The notes under the pieces: model-generated
What the model saw: only the letters and a program-made list of their open reading frames with translations
The model's database searches: none
Told to the model about the DNA's origin: nothing
Part shown: piece by piece, positions 3,855 through 52,613 of the stretch
Position numbering within the stretch: position 1 is the stretch's first letter
Layout of the letters: each line of letters opens with the position of its first letter
Made by a program: the position numbers and the translations under genes
Assembly (NCBI RefSeq): GCF_000423485.1
Contig: NZ_AUIB01000004.1
Coordinates: 83,492 to 147,491 of the forward strand
Direction: 5' to 3'
DNA from: Propionimicrobium lymphophilum DSM 4903
Lineage (GTDB): Bacteria > Actinomycetota > Actinomycetes > Propionibacteriales > Propionibacteriaceae
DNA: 64,000 nt

Positions 3855-5309
3855 ATGGATGACGACATTATTCGCGTAGAGGGCGTGGATAGGGTTTTCT
3901 CTAGGAAGAAGATCCTGATCATTTTGCTCTTTGGCCTGGCGTTGGCCATGATGTCGATTAGCTCTGTTAACGTCGCGCTGCCGTCGATTCAAAAGTCGAT
4001 TGGCGCCTCGGATACCGATCTTCAGTGGCTGCTTTCCGGCTACGCTTTGACGTTCGGCATCGTGCTCGTCGCAGCCGGACGAATCGGCGATCTGCTCGGG
4101 CGCGGCATCACCTTCATAATCGGTATCTTTCTTTTTTCGACTTCTGCTCTGATCTGCGGTTTGATTCACGATCCGGGCCTGCTGAACATTACACGCCTGG
4201 TGCAGGGCATCGGCGCGGGGTTTTATTCGCCGCAGACCAACGGCATGATCGTGCAGTACTTCCGCGGCCAGGCGCGAGCAACAGCTAACGCGCTGTTCGG
4301 CCTGGTGGTTTCCGTGGCTGTTGCGATCGCCCCGCTGCTCACCGGCTTCCTGATCCAGTGGTTCGGCCCCGACTGGGGGTGGCGGGCGTCCTTCCTGTGG
4401 AGCTTCCCGGTTGGTGTCGTGACGATGATTCTGGCCATAATGTGGCTCCCGTTTGAGTCTGAACGACGTCTGTGGAATCACCGCAAGCTCGGCATGGCCC
4501 GCGCTGCTCGCTTGGACCTCGACCCGGTCGGCATGATCCTGATGGCGCTGAGCGTGATGTGTGTCATGTTGCCTTTCATGATTAAGACTGCGCTTTCGTT
4601 CGCGCTTCTGCCGCTGGGTGGCCTGCTGCTTTACATCTGGTACCGCTGGGAGAAGGCGTACAAGAAACGCGGCAATCAGCCGATGGTTGATCTGCACCTT
4701 TTCAAAGTCCGTTCGTTCACGAACGCGACGATGGTTTCCGGCATGCAGTTCTTGGGCGGCACCTCGGTGTTCGTCATCATCGCGCTTTACCTGCAGAACG
4801 GCCTGGGTGCCAGCGCGCTCGTCTCCGGTTCTATCGGCCTGCCGAACGCTATTGGTTCTGCGGTTGCCGCGATGATCGCCGGACGTAACGTGCTGCGCCG
4901 CGGACGCACGATGACGATGCATTCGCTCGGTATCTACATCGTCGGCCTGCTGATGCTGATCACTTTGATCCAGTTCGTGCCCGCTATCAGCTACTGGTGG
5001 CTGTCGATTCCGCTGGTGTTCACCGGCGTCGGCGTCGGCGCGTTCAACTCCGCTAACCAGACCCTGTCGATGCTCGAGTTGACCCCTGACATGGGTGGCA
5101 CAGCTGGCGGTGTCAAGCAGACGATCGAGCGCACCACAACCGCGATCGGCAACGCGATGCTCACTGCGATCTGTTTCATGTTCGTTGCGCAGGGCTGGCG
5201 GATCGCGGCAACAATGGCCTATAGCGTCATCACTTTGATCATCGTGCTTTCCTTGTTGCTAGCCTGGTACGACAAACGCAAGTTGGGAGACCCGGAGCCT
5301 CTCGCATAG
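3855..5309 (+). CDS. MFS transporter, DHA2 (14-TM, EmrB/QacA-like) family
   Basis: Proton-driven efflux pump in the cytoplasmic membrane; substrates of this family are usually drugs or other amphiphiles, and the substrate here is unknown. ATG 3855 follows TAGGAGA at 3844-3850. After about 20 hydrophilic residues come many hydrophobic segments. The first loop shows the DHA motif SSVNVALPSIQKS, and motif A is near RIGDLLGRG. Length of 484 residues and the number of hydrophobic stretches fit 14 helices. The next gene starts 8 nt downstream, so the two are likely co-transcribed. This gene is not part of the usual cca-to-murJ gene order and may be a local insertion. Confidence 0.9.
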   Translation: MDDDIIRVEGVDRVFSRKKILIILLFGLALAMMSISSVNVALPSIQKSIGASDTDLQWLLSGYALTFGIVLVAAGRIGDLLGRGITFIIGIFLFSTSALICGLIHDPGLLNITRLVQGIGAGFYSPQTNGMIVQYFRGQARATANALFGLVVSVAVAIAPLLTGFLIQWFGPDWGWRASFLWSFPVGVVTMILAIMWLPFESERRLWNHRKLGMARAARLDLDPVGMILMALSVMCVMLPFMIKTALSFALLPLGGLLLYIWYRWEKAYKKRGNQPMVDLHLFKVRSFTNATMVSGMQFLGGTSVFVIIALYLQNGLGASALVSGSIGLPNAIGSAVAAMIAGRNVLRRGRTMTMHSLGIYIVGLLMLITLIQFVPAISYWWLSIPLVFTGVGVGAFNSANQTLSMLELTPDMGGTAGGVKQTIERTTTAIGNAMLTAICFMFVAQGWRIAATMAYSVITLIIVLSLLLAWYDKRKLGDPEPLA

Positions 5310-5316
5310 GAGCCGA

Positions 5317-7140
5317 ATGGGACGCAGGATCAGCCTTTTCCTGGTCGTCTTGATGACGATCTTGTGTGCTGGTGCACCCTCTTTCGCCGATGAGCAGGCT
5401 CCTCGGCTCGACGTCGTTGTGACGCAGATGAGTCCGCAGTACGTGACGACCACGGGCGAAATATCCATCATCGGCACGGTGAAGAATCCTGGCACTAGCG
5501 CGTTGAACAACGTCTCGGTGGGGCTTTGGCGAGACGCCACCCCGCTCACCACTCCGTCGCAATTGAAGACTGCCCTCGATCAGCCCGGTGGTGGAGCGGT
5601 AAGCAACGCCTCTGGTGCCAGCATGAACTTGGGCTCTGTAGAGCCAGGCGCGACCAAGAATTTCAAGGTTTCTGCGAGCCTAGACCCGGGAAACGCCAGC
5701 GAACCTCTTTGGCTAAGCCAGCAGGATGCCGCATATCGGATCGGCGTAGAGGCCCGCTCGGATGGCCTGCTGGTTGGCGCAGCGCGAACCGCCATCGTCA
5801 ACCCAGGCAGTTCCGCAACCACCGCCCAGCTAGTCGTGTTGAACTCGAAACCCGCGCTGAATCCGCTGACCCACACGCCCGACTCCGAGCCGGCGACCGC
5901 TGACCTGCTGGACGCTGACGCGTTGAGCGCAGACCTGAGTCAGCGACTGGAGCCGCTGCTGAGAGCAGCAGACAGTTCCGATGTTCTGGTGGACCCCGCG
6001 CTTATCGATCAGCTCACAGCGCTCGGCACCCCGCAGGCGACGGAGTTCCTAACCCGCTTAAAGGCTAGGATCTCGAAGTCGGGTGCCTATCGGGGCCTCT
6101 ACAATTCTCCGGATGTCGCAACTGTTCGCGCCTCTGGTACGGATAAGTGGCTAGATGCCGCCAACCGCGTAGACGCCGAAGGGGTCGTCGAGAGGCTGCC
6201 GTTGATTGTCTCCGCTGGTGAAGTTAGCGGCCAGGATGTCGAGGCGTTGGCAGCTGCCAAGCCCGTTGCGGTGCTCGCTAGGAATTTGGTTACTGGTCCT
6301 GCAGTTCTGGATGGCGTCCGTTTGGTGGCGGCGGATTCCGTGCCGTCGAATAGTTTCTCTGCGGCTGGTATGCGTGCCCGGCAGCTGATTTTCGGCAAGG
6401 AAAATCCGCTCGTCACGCTCGTAGCCAGTCCGCAGGCCATCGTTGATTCCCGATCGGGTTGGCTCGAAACGGTCTCGATCGACGGCCTGCTCAGCTGCCA
6501 GCCGGAATCGGAGATCAACCTGTCCTCGACGTCTCAACCCTCCAAGATGCCCGATACCGAGGTCCTCAGCCGCTGGGTGACTTTCACGGGTAACTCGAAG
6601 AACTACCAGAAGATTCTCGATTCCGTCGCTAACGCTTATGCCTCTAGCGCGTTCACTGGCTCGCAGCGCGATGCCTGGCTTGCCAAAGTGTTAGAGCCTG
6701 CGCGTGCGCTGGACAACCCCAACGCCGTCCAATTGCTTGCCACGGACACGGTCACCACGTCTGAAAAGGACAACGCTTTGCCGGTGACTATCGTCAATTC
6801 GACGGGCTCTCCTGCGCTGCTTCGGGTCAGGTTCGACTCGGATAACGACCAGCGTGTGTGGATTAATGACACTTCTTTGGTCGAGTTGGATGCCGGTGAG
6901 CAGTTGACCCTGCGCGTGAACCCCCACTCGAAGGCCAACGGGCCGGTGGAGGTGAGGGCCCAGCTGGTTCTGGAGGACGGCCAGCCCATCGGTGAGCCGG
7001 TCTCGTTTCTGGTGACGGCCACGAAGGTCGGGAACGTCGCCTGGGTGTTAATCATCGCCTCCGGCGCGGTGCTGTTGACTGTCACCGCATGGCGGGTTCA
7101 TCAGGTAAGACGCAAAGGTGCCACGCACGTCGAGGACTAA
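5317..7140 (+). CDS. DUF6049-like secreted, membrane-anchored protein
   Basis: Function unknown. Residues 1-24 form a signal peptide (basic MGRR, a hydrophobic core, then SFADEQ). A long extracytoplasmic region follows, starting with a beta-rich, Ig-like part (residues about 30-140), and one C-terminal helix (VAWVLIIASGAVLLTVTAW) ends in a short basic tail. This topology, the length of 607 residues and the position between the CCA enzyme and the pseudokinase match the actinobacterial DUF6049 family, which normally sits beside murJ and is thought to act in envelope assembly. Assignment rests on context and architecture more than on a sharp motif. TAGGAG precedes the ATG. Confidence 0.7.
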   Translation: MGRRISLFLVVLMTILCAGAPSFADEQAPRLDVVVTQMSPQYVTTTGEISIIGTVKNPGTSALNNVSVGLWRDATPLTTPSQLKTALDQPGGGAVSNASGASMNLGSVEPGATKNFKVSASLDPGNASEPLWLSQQDAAYRIGVEARSDGLLVGAARTAIVNPGSSATTAQLVVLNSKPALNPLTHTPDSEPATADLLDADALSADLSQRLEPLLRAADSSDVLVDPALIDQLTALGTPQATEFLTRLKARISKSGAYRGLYNSPDVATVRASGTDKWLDAANRVDAEGVVERLPLIVSAGEVSGQDVEALAAAKPVAVLARNLVTGPAVLDGVRLVAADSVPSNSFSAAGMRARQLIFGKENPLVTLVASPQAIVDSRSGWLETVSIDGLLSCQPESEINLSSTSQPSKMPDTEVLSRWVTFTGNSKNYQKILDSVANAYASSAFTGSQRDAWLAKVLEPARALDNPNAVQLLATDTVTTSEKDNALPVTIVNSTGSPALLRVRFDSDNDQRVWINDTSLVELDAGEQLTLRVNPHSKANGPVEVRAQLVLEDGQPIGEPVSFLVTATKVGNVAWVLIIASGAVLLTVTAWRVHQVRRKGATHVED

Positions 7141-47343: not shown

Positions 47344-47694
47344 GCTTAGCGGCTTTCAATCGAACACGTGGTAGTTAACAAGATCATGCTTCTTTCAAGA
47401 CTCCCGGCCAAGGCCAGGACAGCGGCTTCGTCTTGCCCGGACAGGCCAAAATGCTTTGGTCAAGATTCGGGCAAGAGCTAATTTAGCCGCACTAAGCCCG
47501 CTTGCTGCATGTTACCTGGCAGATCCTTAAGAACCTCACAGTTCACTAATAGGTGGACGTGCGTCCGCCAATAAAATGTCGGGTGCATGAAACTGAGCAG
47601 ACGCCAGGTTTATGCACCCGATGTTTATAACGGTTATGTGCGACGACTAGGGCTTGCGCTGCCCTAGCTGGGGAACCTAGTTTTACAATGAGGT
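47344..47694 (+). other. Gene-free stretch upstream of GNAT gene
   Basis: 351 bp between divergent genes, with no supported coding sequence. It contains two successive hairpins, at 47552-47569 (7 bp, one T-G pair) and at 47575-47625. Confidence 0.6.
47575..47625 (+). repeat. Imperfect 21-bp inverted repeat
   Basis: Arms 47575-47595 and 47605-47625 pair over 21 positions with a single mismatch when read as + strand RNA (three G-U pairs); as - strand RNA four positions fail. The loop is AGCAGACGC. The strand bias suggests it acts as RNA in + strand transcripts, perhaps in the GNAT leader. Confidence 0.6.
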
Positions 47695-48183
47695 ATGCGA
47701 ATCAGGCAGACCGCCATGGATGACTTCGACGCGATCGTCGCGATCTATGATCAAGCGCGCGCCTACATGGCCGACGAAGGCAACTACACCCAGTGGGGGT
47801 TTGGCTATCCTGACAGCGACATCGTGCGAAGCGACGTTGAAAGTTCGAACAGCTACGTGATCGTCGCGGACGACGAAATCGTTGGCACCTTCTACTTCTC
47901 GGTCGAGGACGACCCAACCTATCGCGTAATCGAGGGCGGCGTCTGGGGTGGCGATTCGCCCTACGGAGTAATTCACCGGCTGGCATCCAGCGGCAAAGCC
48001 CGAGGCATCGGCCGCGCCTGCTTCGAGTTCTGTGCCGAAAAGATCGGCTACCTGCGCATCGACACCCACCGCAACAACCAAAGCATGCGCAAGGCGCTCA
48101 CCGACTTCGGGTTCGTCGAGCGCGGAATCATCTACACCCACGACGGAACCCCACGTCTGGCCTTCGATTACTCGGCCAAGTGA
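47695..48183 (+). CDS. GNAT-family N-acetyltransferase
   Basis: Acetyl-CoA-dependent acetyltransferase, substrate unknown. The GNAT fold is read from VIVADDEIVGTFYFSVED, the acetyl-CoA loop with GKARGIGRACFEF, and the C-terminal YLRIDTHRNNQSMRKALTDFGFVERG segment. Length 162 residues. The ATG at 47695 has only a weak AGG close by. It lies beside the AlbA_2 module, with repeat copy A starting 51 nt after its stop. Confidence 0.9.
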   Translation: MRIRQTAMDDFDAIVAIYDQARAYMADEGNYTQWGFGYPDSDIVRSDVESSNSYVIVADDEIVGTFYFSVEDDPTYRVIEGGVWGGDSPYGVIHRLASSGKARGIGRACFEFCAEKIGYLRIDTHRNNQSMRKALTDFGFVERGIIYTHDGTPRLAFDYSAK

Positions 48184-48234
48184 CTCCAACCACTAAACGA
48201 TGCTGGCTATTCCGACAAAAACACCCCAAATTTC

Positions 48235-48323
48235 AAAAAATTGTTAGATTGGCGCCCCTCTAATCTGTCATTAAATTGATATTTGGATGATTCGTGACAG
48301 ATTACGGGGTGTCTAATCTAACA
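48235..48323. repeat. 89-bp direct repeat, copy A
   Basis: Matches copy B (50120-50208) at 85 of 89 positions. All four differences fall in the left third; the right 55 bases or so are identical. It contains nested inverted repeats, an outer TTGTTAGATT/AATCTAACA and an inner TAATCTGTCA/TGACAGATTA, giving a stem of about 28 bp in + strand RNA. It lies downstream of the AlbA_2 gene. Confidence 0.95.
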
Positions 48324-48339
48324 TTCCTGGTCTTCTGTC

Positions 48340-50061
48340 TTAAGAAACTGGATGGTTTCGCACAAATCTAGTCGCTCTACCTTTTCCGGTTTGGGCTAGC
48401 AAACCTGTATTGCTCAATTCATCAAGCATTCTTCTTGCTGTTCCTCGCGAGATGTCACATAGCTGCATTAAATCGCCGGTAGTGATGGACGGAAAAACCT
48501 CTAACCACTCACTTACGACAGATTCAATTTGCCTTATGTCCGTAGATAGATAGTTGAGAATCGGGAAAGGGGCGTTCGAAGCTGCCACTAGGCTCCTGGC
48601 AGAAGCAGACAACAGCCAAACCTGCTTGTGCCTACTTATCAGCGGTTGCCCTGAAACGGTTGTCTGTTCCGCGGCTCGAAGCGCATTAAGCGCGGCCTCT
48701 CGCGTCGACTGCAAGGCTGCGGCGAGTGCGCCCTCCGTCACAAAGGCATGTCTAAAAAGGTGGTAAAGCAAAACAGAAATTCTGTAGTCGCGTTGTCTTT
48801 CCCGCGGCGAAATCGAACTAACTAGTTTTAGAACGGGGTAAACCGGTTCACCGCCCTGTAATCTGCATTCGACATACGGGCCGGATACCTCAATAATCTC
48901 GGGCGGTCTATGACCCAGCGTAATCATGGACTGGTACATGCGGTCGACGCCAACACCTTGCTTTTCGACTAGTCCGAGAGCCCGGAAAAGATCGGCCAAA
49001 GCCGGATATCTAGCTGCCCGGTTGGAGAGAACATTGGACGATGATATGCCTGTTGGGAACCCTCCGGGGCTGCGTACCTCTAACATTGAATCCGTGCTGA
49101 ACCAGCGAACTTCCGTAGGTTGTTGCCTGTTCCAATCGCGATGAATTAGTCCATTCAATAGCGCCTCACGAACAGCTTGCTCCGGAACTTGTCGAAAACT
49201 CTGGTGAGCTATTCCAGCTGGGATTATCTGCTCTTGGTTAAAGGCAGATAGGGCCTGCTCGACGAAATTCAGCTGTTCCAACAATGAAGTGTCTGCGGGG
49301 GTGCGCGGACGGTTAATTATTTTCCCACCAGGAACGTCGAATACTGTCAGCTCAATGTTGCAACGGTTGCTGTTGGTGAAAGCTAGTTCGGCTGCTTGGG
49401 TGAGGTGGTTGTCAGAGCGAAGGGCACCTATCCTGAGCAAAAAATCTTCCGTGGTGCTCGGGTCGGTTTCGCCGACCCATCTTTGTGCTAGATGGAGAGC
49501 TGCTGGGGAAATGTCATTAACGGTCAGCCGAGACTTTTGAGCCATTGGGTCGAACTGGTTGCGAGCGGCCATATTTTCCCACCACTCGGCACGATCTACG
49601 GGCTTGCAGCTATCTCCAACCCGCCATCTATATGAATCTGAAGTATTGGCAATCGGTTCCATGGCCTCGGCTACGTAAATCACAAGAACGCGAAGACCGC
49701 AGACTTCTTGTGAGACGATATCCGGAGCCACGTTTACTGCAGAATCGATTCGCTGGCGCAGCCAATCGACATCTAGTTCGGTGCCAATTATTTCGCCGCT
49801 ATCTGCGACTCCAACTATTAATGCGCCGCCACCAGGTGTGTTGGCCATACAGGCCACTTCGTCGGCTAGTTTTGTTGCTGCCTCATTGTTGGTTTTGTCG
49901 CCTGGTTCAATGATGCCGCCGTGACCTCGTCTCCCGGCCTCTTCTTTGAAGTAGATGGCTTGTGTCTCTTTAGATGTTAAAAAGCCGTCACTAGCTGTTG
50001 CGAGGATTTCTCCAACGGCGCTCTGTAACTCGTGCCTGCGTTCGATGCCAACAGCTCGCAT
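48340..50061 (-). CDS. AlbA_2/Schlafen-type ATP-binding protein with C-terminal HTH
   Basis: A 573-residue protein of the AlbA_2-HATPase_c_4 group, often annotated as a putative DNA-binding or transcriptional regulator. The AlbA_2 domain spans about residues 35-165 (NNEAATKLADEVACMANTPGGG, GRxxxYRWRVGDSCKPV-like). The GHKL-like ATP part has AVREALLNGLIHRDW and EKQGVGVDRMYQSM, and the C-terminus has a winged helix (TTGDLMQLCDISRGTARRML). The ATG at 50061 has GGAGG just before it. It is flanked by 89-bp repeats. Family members are linked to phage defence and to stress regulation, which is an inference here. Confidence 0.87.
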   Translation of the reverse strand: MRAVGIERRHELQSAVGEILATASDGFLTSKETQAIYFKEEAGRRGHGGIIEPGDKTNNEAATKLADEVACMANTPGGGALIVGVADSGEIIGTELDVDWLRQRIDSAVNVAPDIVSQEVCGLRVLVIYVAEAMEPIANTSDSYRWRVGDSCKPVDRAEWWENMAARNQFDPMAQKSRLTVNDISPAALHLAQRWVGETDPSTTEDFLLRIGALRSDNHLTQAAELAFTNSNRCNIELTVFDVPGGKIINRPRTPADTSLLEQLNFVEQALSAFNQEQIIPAGIAHQSFRQVPEQAVREALLNGLIHRDWNRQQPTEVRWFSTDSMLEVRSPGGFPTGISSSNVLSNRAARYPALADLFRALGLVEKQGVGVDRMYQSMITLGHRPPEIIEVSGPYVECRLQGGEPVYPVLKLVSSISPRERQRDYRISVLLYHLFRHAFVTEGALAAALQSTREAALNALRAAEQTTVSGQPLISRHKQVWLLSASARSLVAASNAPFPILNYLSTDIRQIESVVSEWLEVFPSITTGDLMQLCDISRGTARRMLDELSNTGLLAQTGKGRATRFVRNHPVS

Positions 50062-50092
50062 AGTGCCTCCAAATGTCACATTCGAGTGTCCT

Positions 50093-50102
50093 TAATCTGG
50101 CA
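50093..50102. promoter_or_regulatory. Operator-like decamer upstream of the AlbA_2 gene
   Basis: TAATCTGGCA, a further relative of the TAATCTRNCA decamers in the 89-bp repeats, lies in the 40 bp before the start codon. CTAACAAAAAATTGTTAG at 50115-50132 is an adjacent 18-bp inverted repeat. Confidence 0.5.
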
Positions 50103-50119
50103 TTAGTTGGCATTCTAAC

Positions 50120-50208
50120 AAAAAATTGTTAGATTAGCTCTCCTCTAAGCTGTCATTAAATTGATATTTGGATGATTCGTGACAGATTACGGGGTGTCTA
50201 ATCTAACA
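50120..50208. repeat. 89-bp direct repeat, copy B
   Basis: Second copy of the repeat at 48235-48323 in the same orientation. It covers the promoter region of the AlbA_2 gene and ends 20 bp before the dhaM stop codon. Decamers TGTTAGATTA, TGACAGATTA and TAATCTAACA are present. Confidence 0.95.
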
Positions 50209-50228: not shown

Positions 50229-52613
50229 CTAGGCCTGTAACGCAATTTTGGCGGCCGCCCTGGCAAGATCCGGAGCCGACGTCGCCAGTGCTAGCTGAGC
50301 GGCCTTCCGGCAAGACTCAAGGGAATACTTGGCTAGAGCCGTGCTCACCCTGGCGATCGCCTGAGGCGCCATCGATAGCGAGGTGACGCCCAACCCAACC
50401 AGCACGCCCGCCAGAAGCGGATCCGAGGCGGCCTCTCCGCATACACCCACGGACTTGCCTGTTCGTGAGCCAGCCTTGCCGATCATCGCGATTAGCTTCA
50501 ACACTGCGGGCTGCCAAGGCGTGCCCAGATGAGCCAGCTCGCCGGAGTGTCGGTCGGCGGCCATGGTGTACTGCGTCAGGTCGTTGGTGCCGATTGAGAC
50601 GAAATCCACCACCTCGAACAGCTCGTCGGCGCACAGCGCGGCAGCCGGCGTTTCGACCATCACGCCGACCGTCTTCAAGCCGTATGAACGAGCGAGCTTG
50701 GCGAATTCGTCAGCCTCCTCGACGGTCGCGATCATCGGCGCCATCACCCACGGTGAGTTGCCCGTCTGGGCGGCCGCGTTTGCGATCGCCCTCAACTGAT
50801 CTTCAAGAATCTGCGGCGAACGCCAACATGTGCGGTAGCCGCGCACGCCCAAAGCCGGGTTCTCCTCGCCAGGAATCGTGACGAAGGGCAGCGGCTTGTC
50901 GGAGCCCGCGTCAAGCGTACGAATGACCACCTTCTTGCCCTCGAAACCGCGAAGAACCTGCGCGTATTGGGCCTCCTGCTCGGAGACGCTAGGGGCGTCC
51001 GAGCGGTTTAGGAAACAAAATTCCGTCCTGAACAGTCCGGAGCCCTCAGCGTTGTTAGCCAACGCCACCGGCACGTCCTGCGGCCAGCCGATGTTTGCGG
51101 CAAGAGTGATAGGGATGCCGTCCGCGGTGGCGCCGGGGCCGGAAAAATCTACAGAAGCGGACGTCTCGGGCGCTGTGCGGGCGCCTTCGGCTTGTTCATC
51201 GGTTGGCTCAACCACCAGATCGCCCGTCGAGCCGTCGATGAGGACACGCTGGCCGTCGTGTAGCTCGGCGTAGCCACTGTTCATCACCGCGGGGATTGCG
51301 AGTGCGCGAGCCAGAATGGCGGTGTGCGATGTGGGCCCGCACTCGCCGAGAATAAGCCCTAGGCAGGTTTTCGGGTCGATCTGAGCGGCATCGGCGGGAG
51401 CCAAATCGCGTGCCACAAGGATGAACGGCTTGTCGCTTGTCGGAATTCCGGCTAGCTCCCGTCCCTCCAAACGGGAGACTACGCGCGCCCGGATATCGCG
51501 GACGTCACAGGCCCGCTCTGCGAGCTTGCCGCCAGCAGAATCGAAGCGAATGACGACCTCACTGAACGCGTCCCAGACCGCTTGCTCGGCGGTCGCGCCG
51601 GAATCGTTGATCAGTTGGGACACGCGAGATCGGACGGCACCGTCACAGACCAACTGGGCGGTTGCCTGCAGGATGTCCTTAGCGGTGGGGTCGGCGGTTT
51701 TCGCCTGCTGATTCAGCTGCTCGGCGGTCTGTTCGAGCGAGTCCAACGCCCTCTGCAGCTCGTCCTCGCGTTGGGCTTCGGGAACTTTTTCCCCTTGTGT
51801 CGGCGGCTTGTTGGTGTCGGCCATGGTTGCGACTGGGCCGACAACCCTTCCTGCGCTGATGCCGGCAGTCTGGGGAGCGTTGGTTTCACTTTCGTACGCA
51901 GGCTCGGCGACCTCGCCGAAACCGGATGCTAAAAGTTCGCGCACCCGCTCGACGTCTACGGCAGCGTCCTCGCCGAAGCCCTCGATGGAGATCTCGTCGC
52001 CGCCCACTGTGCCGAGCCCGGCAACGGATAGCGGGCTATCCGCGTCGGCGCTGCGTCCCGTGGCGGTGGAGATTTTGATGCAGGAACCCAGATCGTTGAC
52101 GAGCCTAGCCAGAGCGGCGGCGGGCCGCGCGTGCAGACCCATCGGATTTATTAGCTTCACGCAAGCGCGTGCGTCGGCCTCCGCTGTATTCTCCGCCGGT
52201 TTTTGTTCCGCAGGTTCATCGGCCAACTGCTCGATCTTGCCGTTGAGCGCGGAGCGGGCGGCGGAGGCAACCTCGTCCAGACCCTTGCCACCCGAAGCAG
52301 CCACCGCTGCGGCCAGCAGGCCCTCGACGAACGGTGCAGCCACCACCCGAACCTCGACGTCGAAGACGAACTCGCACGCCATTTCGGCGGAGAGCACCGC
52401 CGAACCAAGATCGGAAATTATCACCACGCCCTCGCCGGAATCGGCGGCCCCGATGGATTCGGCGACGGCCATGGCGTCCGTGCCGAACTCGCCGGAGGCA
52501 GTGCCGGCTGCCAACTGAATATTCGGCGGGTTCTGGCCCGTCATCTGCAAAGCCAGTTCCTTGGCTGCCTCGGCCAGCTTCGGCGAATGCGAAACGGCGA
52601 CAATTCCGATCAT
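50229..52613 (-). CDS. dhaM: DhaM phosphotransferase fused to HPr and complete enzyme I
   Basis: PTS-dependent phosphoryl donor of dihydroxyacetone kinase. Residues 1-130 are an EIIA-mannose-like DhaM domain with His9. An Ala/Glu linker leads to an HPr domain with active His161 (MGLHARPA). The rest, about 245-794, is a full enzyme I: phospho-His430 in GPTSHTAI, the PEP-binding Arg/Glu region (FRTEFCFLNR), GTNDLTQYTMAADRHS and the active Cys in VGVCGEAASDP. Enterobacterial DhaM has only a partial enzyme I, so this one may take phosphate from PEP by itself. DhaL ends 10 nt upstream. Confidence 0.93.
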   Translation of the reverse strand: MIGIVAVSHSPKLAEAAKELALQMTGQNPPNIQLAAGTASGEFGTDAMAVAESIGAADSGEGVVIISDLGSAVLSAEMACEFVFDVEVRVVAAPFVEGLLAAAVAASGGKGLDEVASAARSALNGKIEQLADEPAEQKPAENTAEADARACVKLINPMGLHARPAAALARLVNDLGSCIKISTATGRSADADSPLSVAGLGTVGGDEISIEGFGEDAAVDVERVRELLASGFGEVAEPAYESETNAPQTAGISAGRVVGPVATMADTNKPPTQGEKVPEAQREDELQRALDSLEQTAEQLNQQAKTADPTAKDILQATAQLVCDGAVRSRVSQLINDSGATAEQAVWDAFSEVVIRFDSAGGKLAERACDVRDIRARVVSRLEGRELAGIPTSDKPFILVARDLAPADAAQIDPKTCLGLILGECGPTSHTAILARALAIPAVMNSGYAELHDGQRVLIDGSTGDLVVEPTDEQAEGARTAPETSASVDFSGPGATADGIPITLAANIGWPQDVPVALANNAEGSGLFRTEFCFLNRSDAPSVSEQEAQYAQVLRGFEGKKVVIRTLDAGSDKPLPFVTIPGEENPALGVRGYRTCWRSPQILEDQLRAIANAAAQTGNSPWVMAPMIATVEEADEFAKLARSYGLKTVGVMVETPAAALCADELFEVVDFVSIGTNDLTQYTMAADRHSGELAHLGTPWQPAVLKLIAMIGKAGSRTGKSVGVCGEAASDPLLAGVLVGLGVTSLSMAPQAIARVSTALAKYSLESCRKAAQLALATSAPDLARAAAKIALQA

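Follow-up and report, generated by a model that had tools for sequence, protein, structure and literature searches.

A DIP2311-type regulator gene of Propionimicrobium lymphophilum lies between direct repeats that resemble operators

Results

We analyzed a 64,000-nucleotide stretch of DNA from Propionimicrobium lymphophilum DSM 4903 (contig NZ_AUIB01000004.1; hereafter the window), in which one minus-strand gene (48340..50061), encoding an intact protein of 573 amino acids, lies between two direct repeats. A ribosome-binding site, GGAGG, was read in the sequence at 50066..50070 (minus strand), where it precedes the ATG at 50061; the GTG at 50079 is an alternative start. The protein combines SLFN_AlbA_2 (1e-11), HATPase_c_4 and DUF5635 domains with a winged-helix C-terminus and also matched DIP2311-like_C in Pfam, the scores of DUF5635 (113.1 bits, cut-off 25) and DIP2311-like_C (52 bits, cut-off 27) both lying above the Pfam cut-offs. 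Its closest solved structure is 3LMM, the DIP2311 protein of Corynebacterium diphtheriae, which it matches from end to end (phmmer E 8e-197), and an AlphaFold model of the regulator (pLDDT 89.5) was paired with 3LMM by Foldseek (TM 0.87/0.91, 55% identity, two complete chains). The next-best Foldseek matches were the N-domains of Schlafen proteins (SLFN11/12/13/14), which covered the AlbA_2 part with E values of 6e-5 to 3e-4. By its sequence and predicted structure, the protein is a member of the known DIP2311/DUF5635 family, to which the literature searched makes one passing reference. The P. lymphophilum genome carries a single copy of the gene (E<=1e-20).

Both neighbours lie outside the repeats. 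On the upstream flank and co-directional with the regulator gene is dhaM (50229..52613, minus strand), whose product is a long PTS protein in which EIIA-man, HPr and EI-type (PEP-utilising) domains are fused, and on the downstream flank, convergent with it, is a GNAT-like gene (47695..48183, plus strand) with no Pfam match at 1e-3. In the divergent intergenic stretch preceding the GNAT-like gene lies an inverted repeat of 22 nt (82%), its halves separated by 9 nt (AAATGTCGGGTGCATGAAACTG...CAGGTTTATGCACCCGATGTTT, 47574-47626), which looks like an unrelated operator. A dedicated role in regulating the dha operon was considered because one relative has a shorter homologue some 2 kb away from dhaK, with neighbours that, read from ORFs, resemble purA and a DUF488-type gene. 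We rejected this role, as in the four family relatives with an orthologous dhaKLM operon neither the regulator nor the GNAT gene was found within 1.5 kb of dhaM.

The two copies of the repeat, here termed R, are 90 nt long, 86/90 identical (96%) and in the same orientation, 1885 bp apart from start to start. The upstream copy, R_up (50119..50208, minus strand), lies about 58 bp 5' of the regulator start codon and about 20 bp past the dhaM stop codon, and the downstream copy, R_down (48234..48323, minus strand), lies 16 bp past the regulator stop codon. Each copy holds two 29-nt arms, 24 nt apart and mutually inverted (50127-50155 and 50180-50208 in R_up; 48242-48270 and 48295-48323 in R_down), and each arm is in itself a 10-9-10 dyad of the build TGNNAGATTA-N9-TAATCTNNCA, the arms of R_down being TGTTAGATTGGCGCCCCTCTAATCTGTCA and TGACAGATTACGGGGTGTCTAATCTAACA. 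Between R_up and the start codon, at 50090..50118 (minus strand), extra degenerate half-sites were read in the sequence (TTAATCTGGCATTAGTTGGCATTCTAACA on the plus strand). A preliminary description of the window had reported one gene bracketed by 89-bp direct repeats (85/89 identical) with nested inverted repeats and no visible transposase; all of this held, 48235-48323 being the 89-bp version of R_down and no transposase being present among the ORFs listed at 45.5-53.5 kb.

It had also proposed a genome search for further copies of the repeat, which returned the two copies only (E 5e-69 and 6e-36) and no third in 2.04 Mb on 26 contigs; R is thus no common dispersed element in its own genome. 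A looser dyad pattern gave just three half-matches elsewhere in this genome, all without the outer TG/CA bases. Single-stranded R folds well (z -4.3), and no Rfam family was found at 46-53 kb of the window.

We then compared the locus with 80 named loci fetched via the alignment of relatives and with 20 Corynebacterium loci, defining a close clade at about 49% protein identity or more. Repeats were counted in 35 non-redundant close-clade loci (Corynebacterium, Actinomyces, Mobiluncus, Tsukamurella and others) using fixed flanks and a direct-repeat threshold of E<1e-5, with neighbouring ORFs treated alike. Direct repeats flank the gene in 22 of the 35 loci as compared to 2 of 130 control ORFs, and because so few adjacent ORFs of the relatives show them, the repeats around the regulator are not due to chance. 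They measure about 30-130 bp, with one of 221 bp, and consist of the same kind of dyad, the sequence of which differs by lineage (Mobiluncus, TTGAACGATTA; Tsukamurella, TTGTCACTTTA; Actinomyces, TGTTGATTTA; Corynebacterium, TGTGAGATTA or TGTTAGATTA). Among the 35 downstream flanks, the one that best matched the upstream copy was that of the same locus in 20 of the 22 cases. As the copies of R are alike within a locus and divergent between loci, they would be either re-made at each gain or held similar by conversion. The stop codon of the gene falls inside R_down in several loci (L057, L060, L259, L260, L262 and others), and in about a third of the close-clade loci no downstream R was recognisable. 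Long repeats are rare around distant homologues, two of which (L009 and L034) have dyads on both sides and no long direct repeat.

Individual loci depart from this layout in various ways. In Corynebacterium lowii (L047/L274) R_down lies 606 bp past the stop codon and beyond a GNAT acetyltransferase gene, such that the repeat pair encloses two genes, and in Corynebacterium phocae (L051) about nine tandem dyads with a 55-bp period extend from roughly 70 to 550 bp upstream, with none recognised downstream. The direct repeat of Actinomyces dentalis (L064) is 129 bp long (3891-4019 and 5706-5834), and in Actinomyces bovis (L060) a control ORF (1579-2922) carries a 48-bp direct repeat, 98% identical, at both ends. 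In Rothia nasimurium (L058/L059) the regulator gene is positioned some 2.3 kb upstream of a gene for an HsdM-like type I restriction-modification protein.

The regulator gene was present in 20 of 151 Corynebacterium genomes (13%), and broken copies occur in three genomes (G783, zg-331 and G861), in which the gene is therefore dispensable. The gene tree mixes families and includes one Thermomicrobiota metagenome-assembled genome, whose contig could be misassigned. Across actinobacteria the unit of gene and repeats occupies many unrelated loci, mostly tail-to-tail gaps: when the best-scoring ORF on each side was taken as the neighbour (an ORF heuristic, not annotation), both sides could be called for 17 units, of which 13, the window included, lay in such gaps. 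Of the neighbours called, 15 of 19 on the left ran toward the unit and 15 of 18 on the right converged on it. In nine of these units the start of R_up overlaps the 3' end of the left gene or is no more than about 15 bp away from it. Apart from same or near-identical species pairs, both flanks were clearly common within the close clade only to four Corynebacterium loci, situated between an M20 peptidase gene and a CHY gene (the M20-CHY locus, to which the C. lowii unit belongs); the flanks of L052/L267 and L260 are partly in common.

The M20-CHY locus provides both occupied and empty sites. The full arrangement of R, gene and R was found there in C. mastitidis, in sp. zg-331 and in genome G783. 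Genome G784, which shares 91% nucleotide identity with its sister G783 in the CHY gene, lacks the regulator gene and has exactly one R between the M20 peptidase and CHY genes, and the more distant G818, G726 and G825 have neither gene nor R. In G784 the left flank of R_up and the kept R are followed by a filler of about 36-40 bp that matched nothing convincingly; the right flank then resumes at the base that directly follows R_down, which makes the site an imperfect product of recombination between the repeats. The simplest order of events is a gain in the clade followed by a loss in G784 by repeat recombination and a later small change. At a second locus, the resB-ccsA junction, the two genes are uninterrupted in 29 of 29 inspected relatives (gap -6 to 372 bp), and in genome G728 the unit lies a few bases past the resB stop codon, together with a 279-aa ORF outside the repeats.

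The preliminary description had regarded the locus either as a small unit inserted and excised by recombination between the repeats or as a self-regulating defence or stress gene with its operators. The first proposal gains from the single-R empty site at an equivalent Corynebacterium locus and from the unrelated loci in other taxa; the case that had been named against it, the same locus in all relatives with no empty site, does not hold in the relatives, as G784 demonstrates. As for the second, a dyad of the same build lies upstream of the gene in many relatives and its half-site diverges with the protein, in favor of self-regulation, whereas a role in anti-phage defence is not supported: PADLOC gave only partial, weak matches, the best of which (3e-10) aligned some 160 aa with a pAgo-associated model of 876 aa.

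Scoring as a dyad any site with at least 9 of 10 complementary arm positions within 170 bp upstream, we found one in 42 of 79 relatives as compared to 15 of 263 control ORFs; downstream dyads were present in 12 of 27 close-clade loci and 4 of 53 distant relatives. When half-sites were registered, their divergence tracked that of the protein (Mantel rho 0.25-0.47, reached by 0 of 1000 permutations), most strongly for AlbA_2 (0.47) and less so for the winged helix (0.28), and with unregistered half-sites the values were weak. Since shared ancestry affects all domains, this covariation does not tell which of them reads the DNA. Searching 151 Corynebacterium genomes with a strict dyad core, which would miss loci with other half-site variants, we found, among the matches listed, the full TGNN...NNCA dyad only in gene-bearing genomes and in G784. 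The candidate operator therefore appears private to its gene, with no wider regulon visible at that strictness. A solo full R lies 1.1 Mb from the gene's own copy in genome G773 (L222, G773:C1:1417160, about 1460-1530), adjoining short ORFs that resemble phage lysis genes, and is possibly a scar or a second target.

Taken together, the matching architecture of R in relatives and its covariation with the protein lead us to infer that R is the operator array of its own gene, to which the regulator would bind and thereby control its own expression.

Discussion

In the explanation that we consider reasonably probable, R is the operator array of the gene, and R, gene and R form a small unit that is gained and lost as a block. 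Block gain and loss is proposed because the layout recurs, its contexts vary, its distribution is patchy and one empty site holds a single R. R_up, about 58 bp before the start codon, would be the site at which the regulator controls its own expression, and R_down a second copy of this operator at the 3' end of the gene. The unit occupies gaps between the 3' ends of genes, where no gene is broken, and recombination between the two direct repeats, the presumptive excision route, would delete the gene and leave one R behind. The many unrelated sites also suggest that the unit may be actively mobile. A further-reaching version, which we regard as speculative, is that of a self-contained one-gene element bounded by the operators that its own product would bind, which enters convergent gaps, leaves by operator recombination without a recombinase of its own, and whose regulator specificity and ends co-evolve.

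A static autoregulator is possible, if on balance doubtful. Here R_down would be a functional second operator, acting in DNA looping, as a transcription block or as a bidirectional terminator, and would be kept identical by gene conversion, with the gene being inherited and occasionally transferred via homologous recombination in its flanks, so that gene and repeats would not be gained or lost as one unit. The position of R between convergent genes in most cases accords with such a role, as do the two-sided dyads of the distant homologues L009 and L034, which have no long direct repeat, the capacity of R to hold tandem dyads (the C. phocae array) and its good single-stranded fold. However, the single-R site of G784 favors a loss between repeats, and the flanking contexts rarely coincide, so that shared flanks can hardly have carried the gene.

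We consider it unlikely that the pair is the remnant of a tandem amplification, in which unequal crossing over at R would have doubled the gene together with R, one of the two genes disappearing afterwards. The upstream repeat of A. dentalis includes about 60-90 bp that resemble the gene's own 3' coding end, and shorter overlaps with the coding end, of 26 bp and 12 bp, occur in A. bovis and Tsukamurella, respectively, yet no locus that we read contains a tandem near-identical gene pair, and most, the window included, lack any trace of the gene in front of R_up. Duplication in tandem with subsequent loss may nevertheless be one way in which paired repeats arise, as fits A. dentalis.

It is quite improbable that a site-specific recombinase acting in trans moves the unit as a mobile cassette, with R as the attachment site, in the manner of integrases or Xer with their sites. 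The direct orientation and palindromic nature of R, the single gene, the one R at the empty site and the many unrelated sites are all as expected for such a cassette, and in L006 (510-1379)/L071 the ORF of a truncated tyrosine recombinase stops some 100 bp upstream of the gene. Nonetheless, no recombinase is consistently linked to the gene, the sequence of R varies with the regulator protein and not with a shared recombinase, and among the matches listed gene-free Corynebacterium genomes have no full-length solo R except for the G784 scar. Nor does a carrier offer itself: plasmid records yielded distant homologues only, one of them covering at least 80% of the query, no homologue was found in phage records and no relative of the protein in viral contigs, where the dyad matches are AT-rich, without the R layout and apparently in coding sequence. 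We accordingly rejected a plasmid or phage as the carrier. Finally, two unrelated MITE-like dispersed repeats inserted by chance on either side of the gene, as the inverted ends within each R might suggest, are scarcely credible given two copies only in the genome and the recurrence of the layout with different R sequences in 22 loci.

Under the favored reading, in which R is the gene's operator array and the unit is gained and lost as a block, a concrete hypothesis becomes available for the DIP2311 family, whose structure is solved: it would have a DNA target that can be predicted and belong to a genetic unit, one that spans actinobacteria including human commensals and pathogens. If truly mobile, the unit would be a very small element with ends that double as the operators of its regulator, and this would help explain the patchiness of the gene in Corynebacterium and its usual closeness to gene 3' ends.

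DIP2311 (3LMM) belongs to the same family over its full length; it was a structural-genomics target, and no account of repeats, of an operator or of mobility was found for it in the literature searched. Our literature search on the protein family, its domains, and Schlafen together with direct repeats likewise found no description of the layout. The Schlafen proteins (SLFN11/12/13/14) have the AlbA_2 fold of the regulator's N-terminus in common with it, in a partial alignment of about 16-20% identity, whereas the HATPase, DUF5635 and winged-helix parts have no counterpart in these matches. Unlike in an insertion sequence or transposon, the sole gene between the repeats is not a transposase and the unit is not multicopy.

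Three other systems were considered, and identity with each was ruled out on geometry or domain content. In pdif/Xer modules, too, direct palindromic sites bracket one or two genes. The pdif sites are 28 bp long with an 11-6-11 geometry, whereas the dyads of R are doubled, have a 10-(8 to 11)-10 build and vary between loci and genomes. A RAYT gene with its REP sequences likewise has palindromic repeats, specific to the gene product, at both gene ends, but the regulator has no Y1 (HUH) transposase domain in Pfam and R is present in two copies only in the genome. An integron cassette similarly comprises one gene with a palindromic repeat at its 3' end. The boxes of attC read RYYYAAC...GTTRRRY, whereas in R the order is inverted to GTTRRRY...RYYYAAC on both strands; R also differs in lying on the promoter side as well and in changing with the encoded protein, and neither an array nor an integrase was seen nearby. 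As the tested defining features of the integron cassette and of RAYT-REP fail, we regard the layout as a variant, undescribed in the literature searched, of genes bracketed by repeats.
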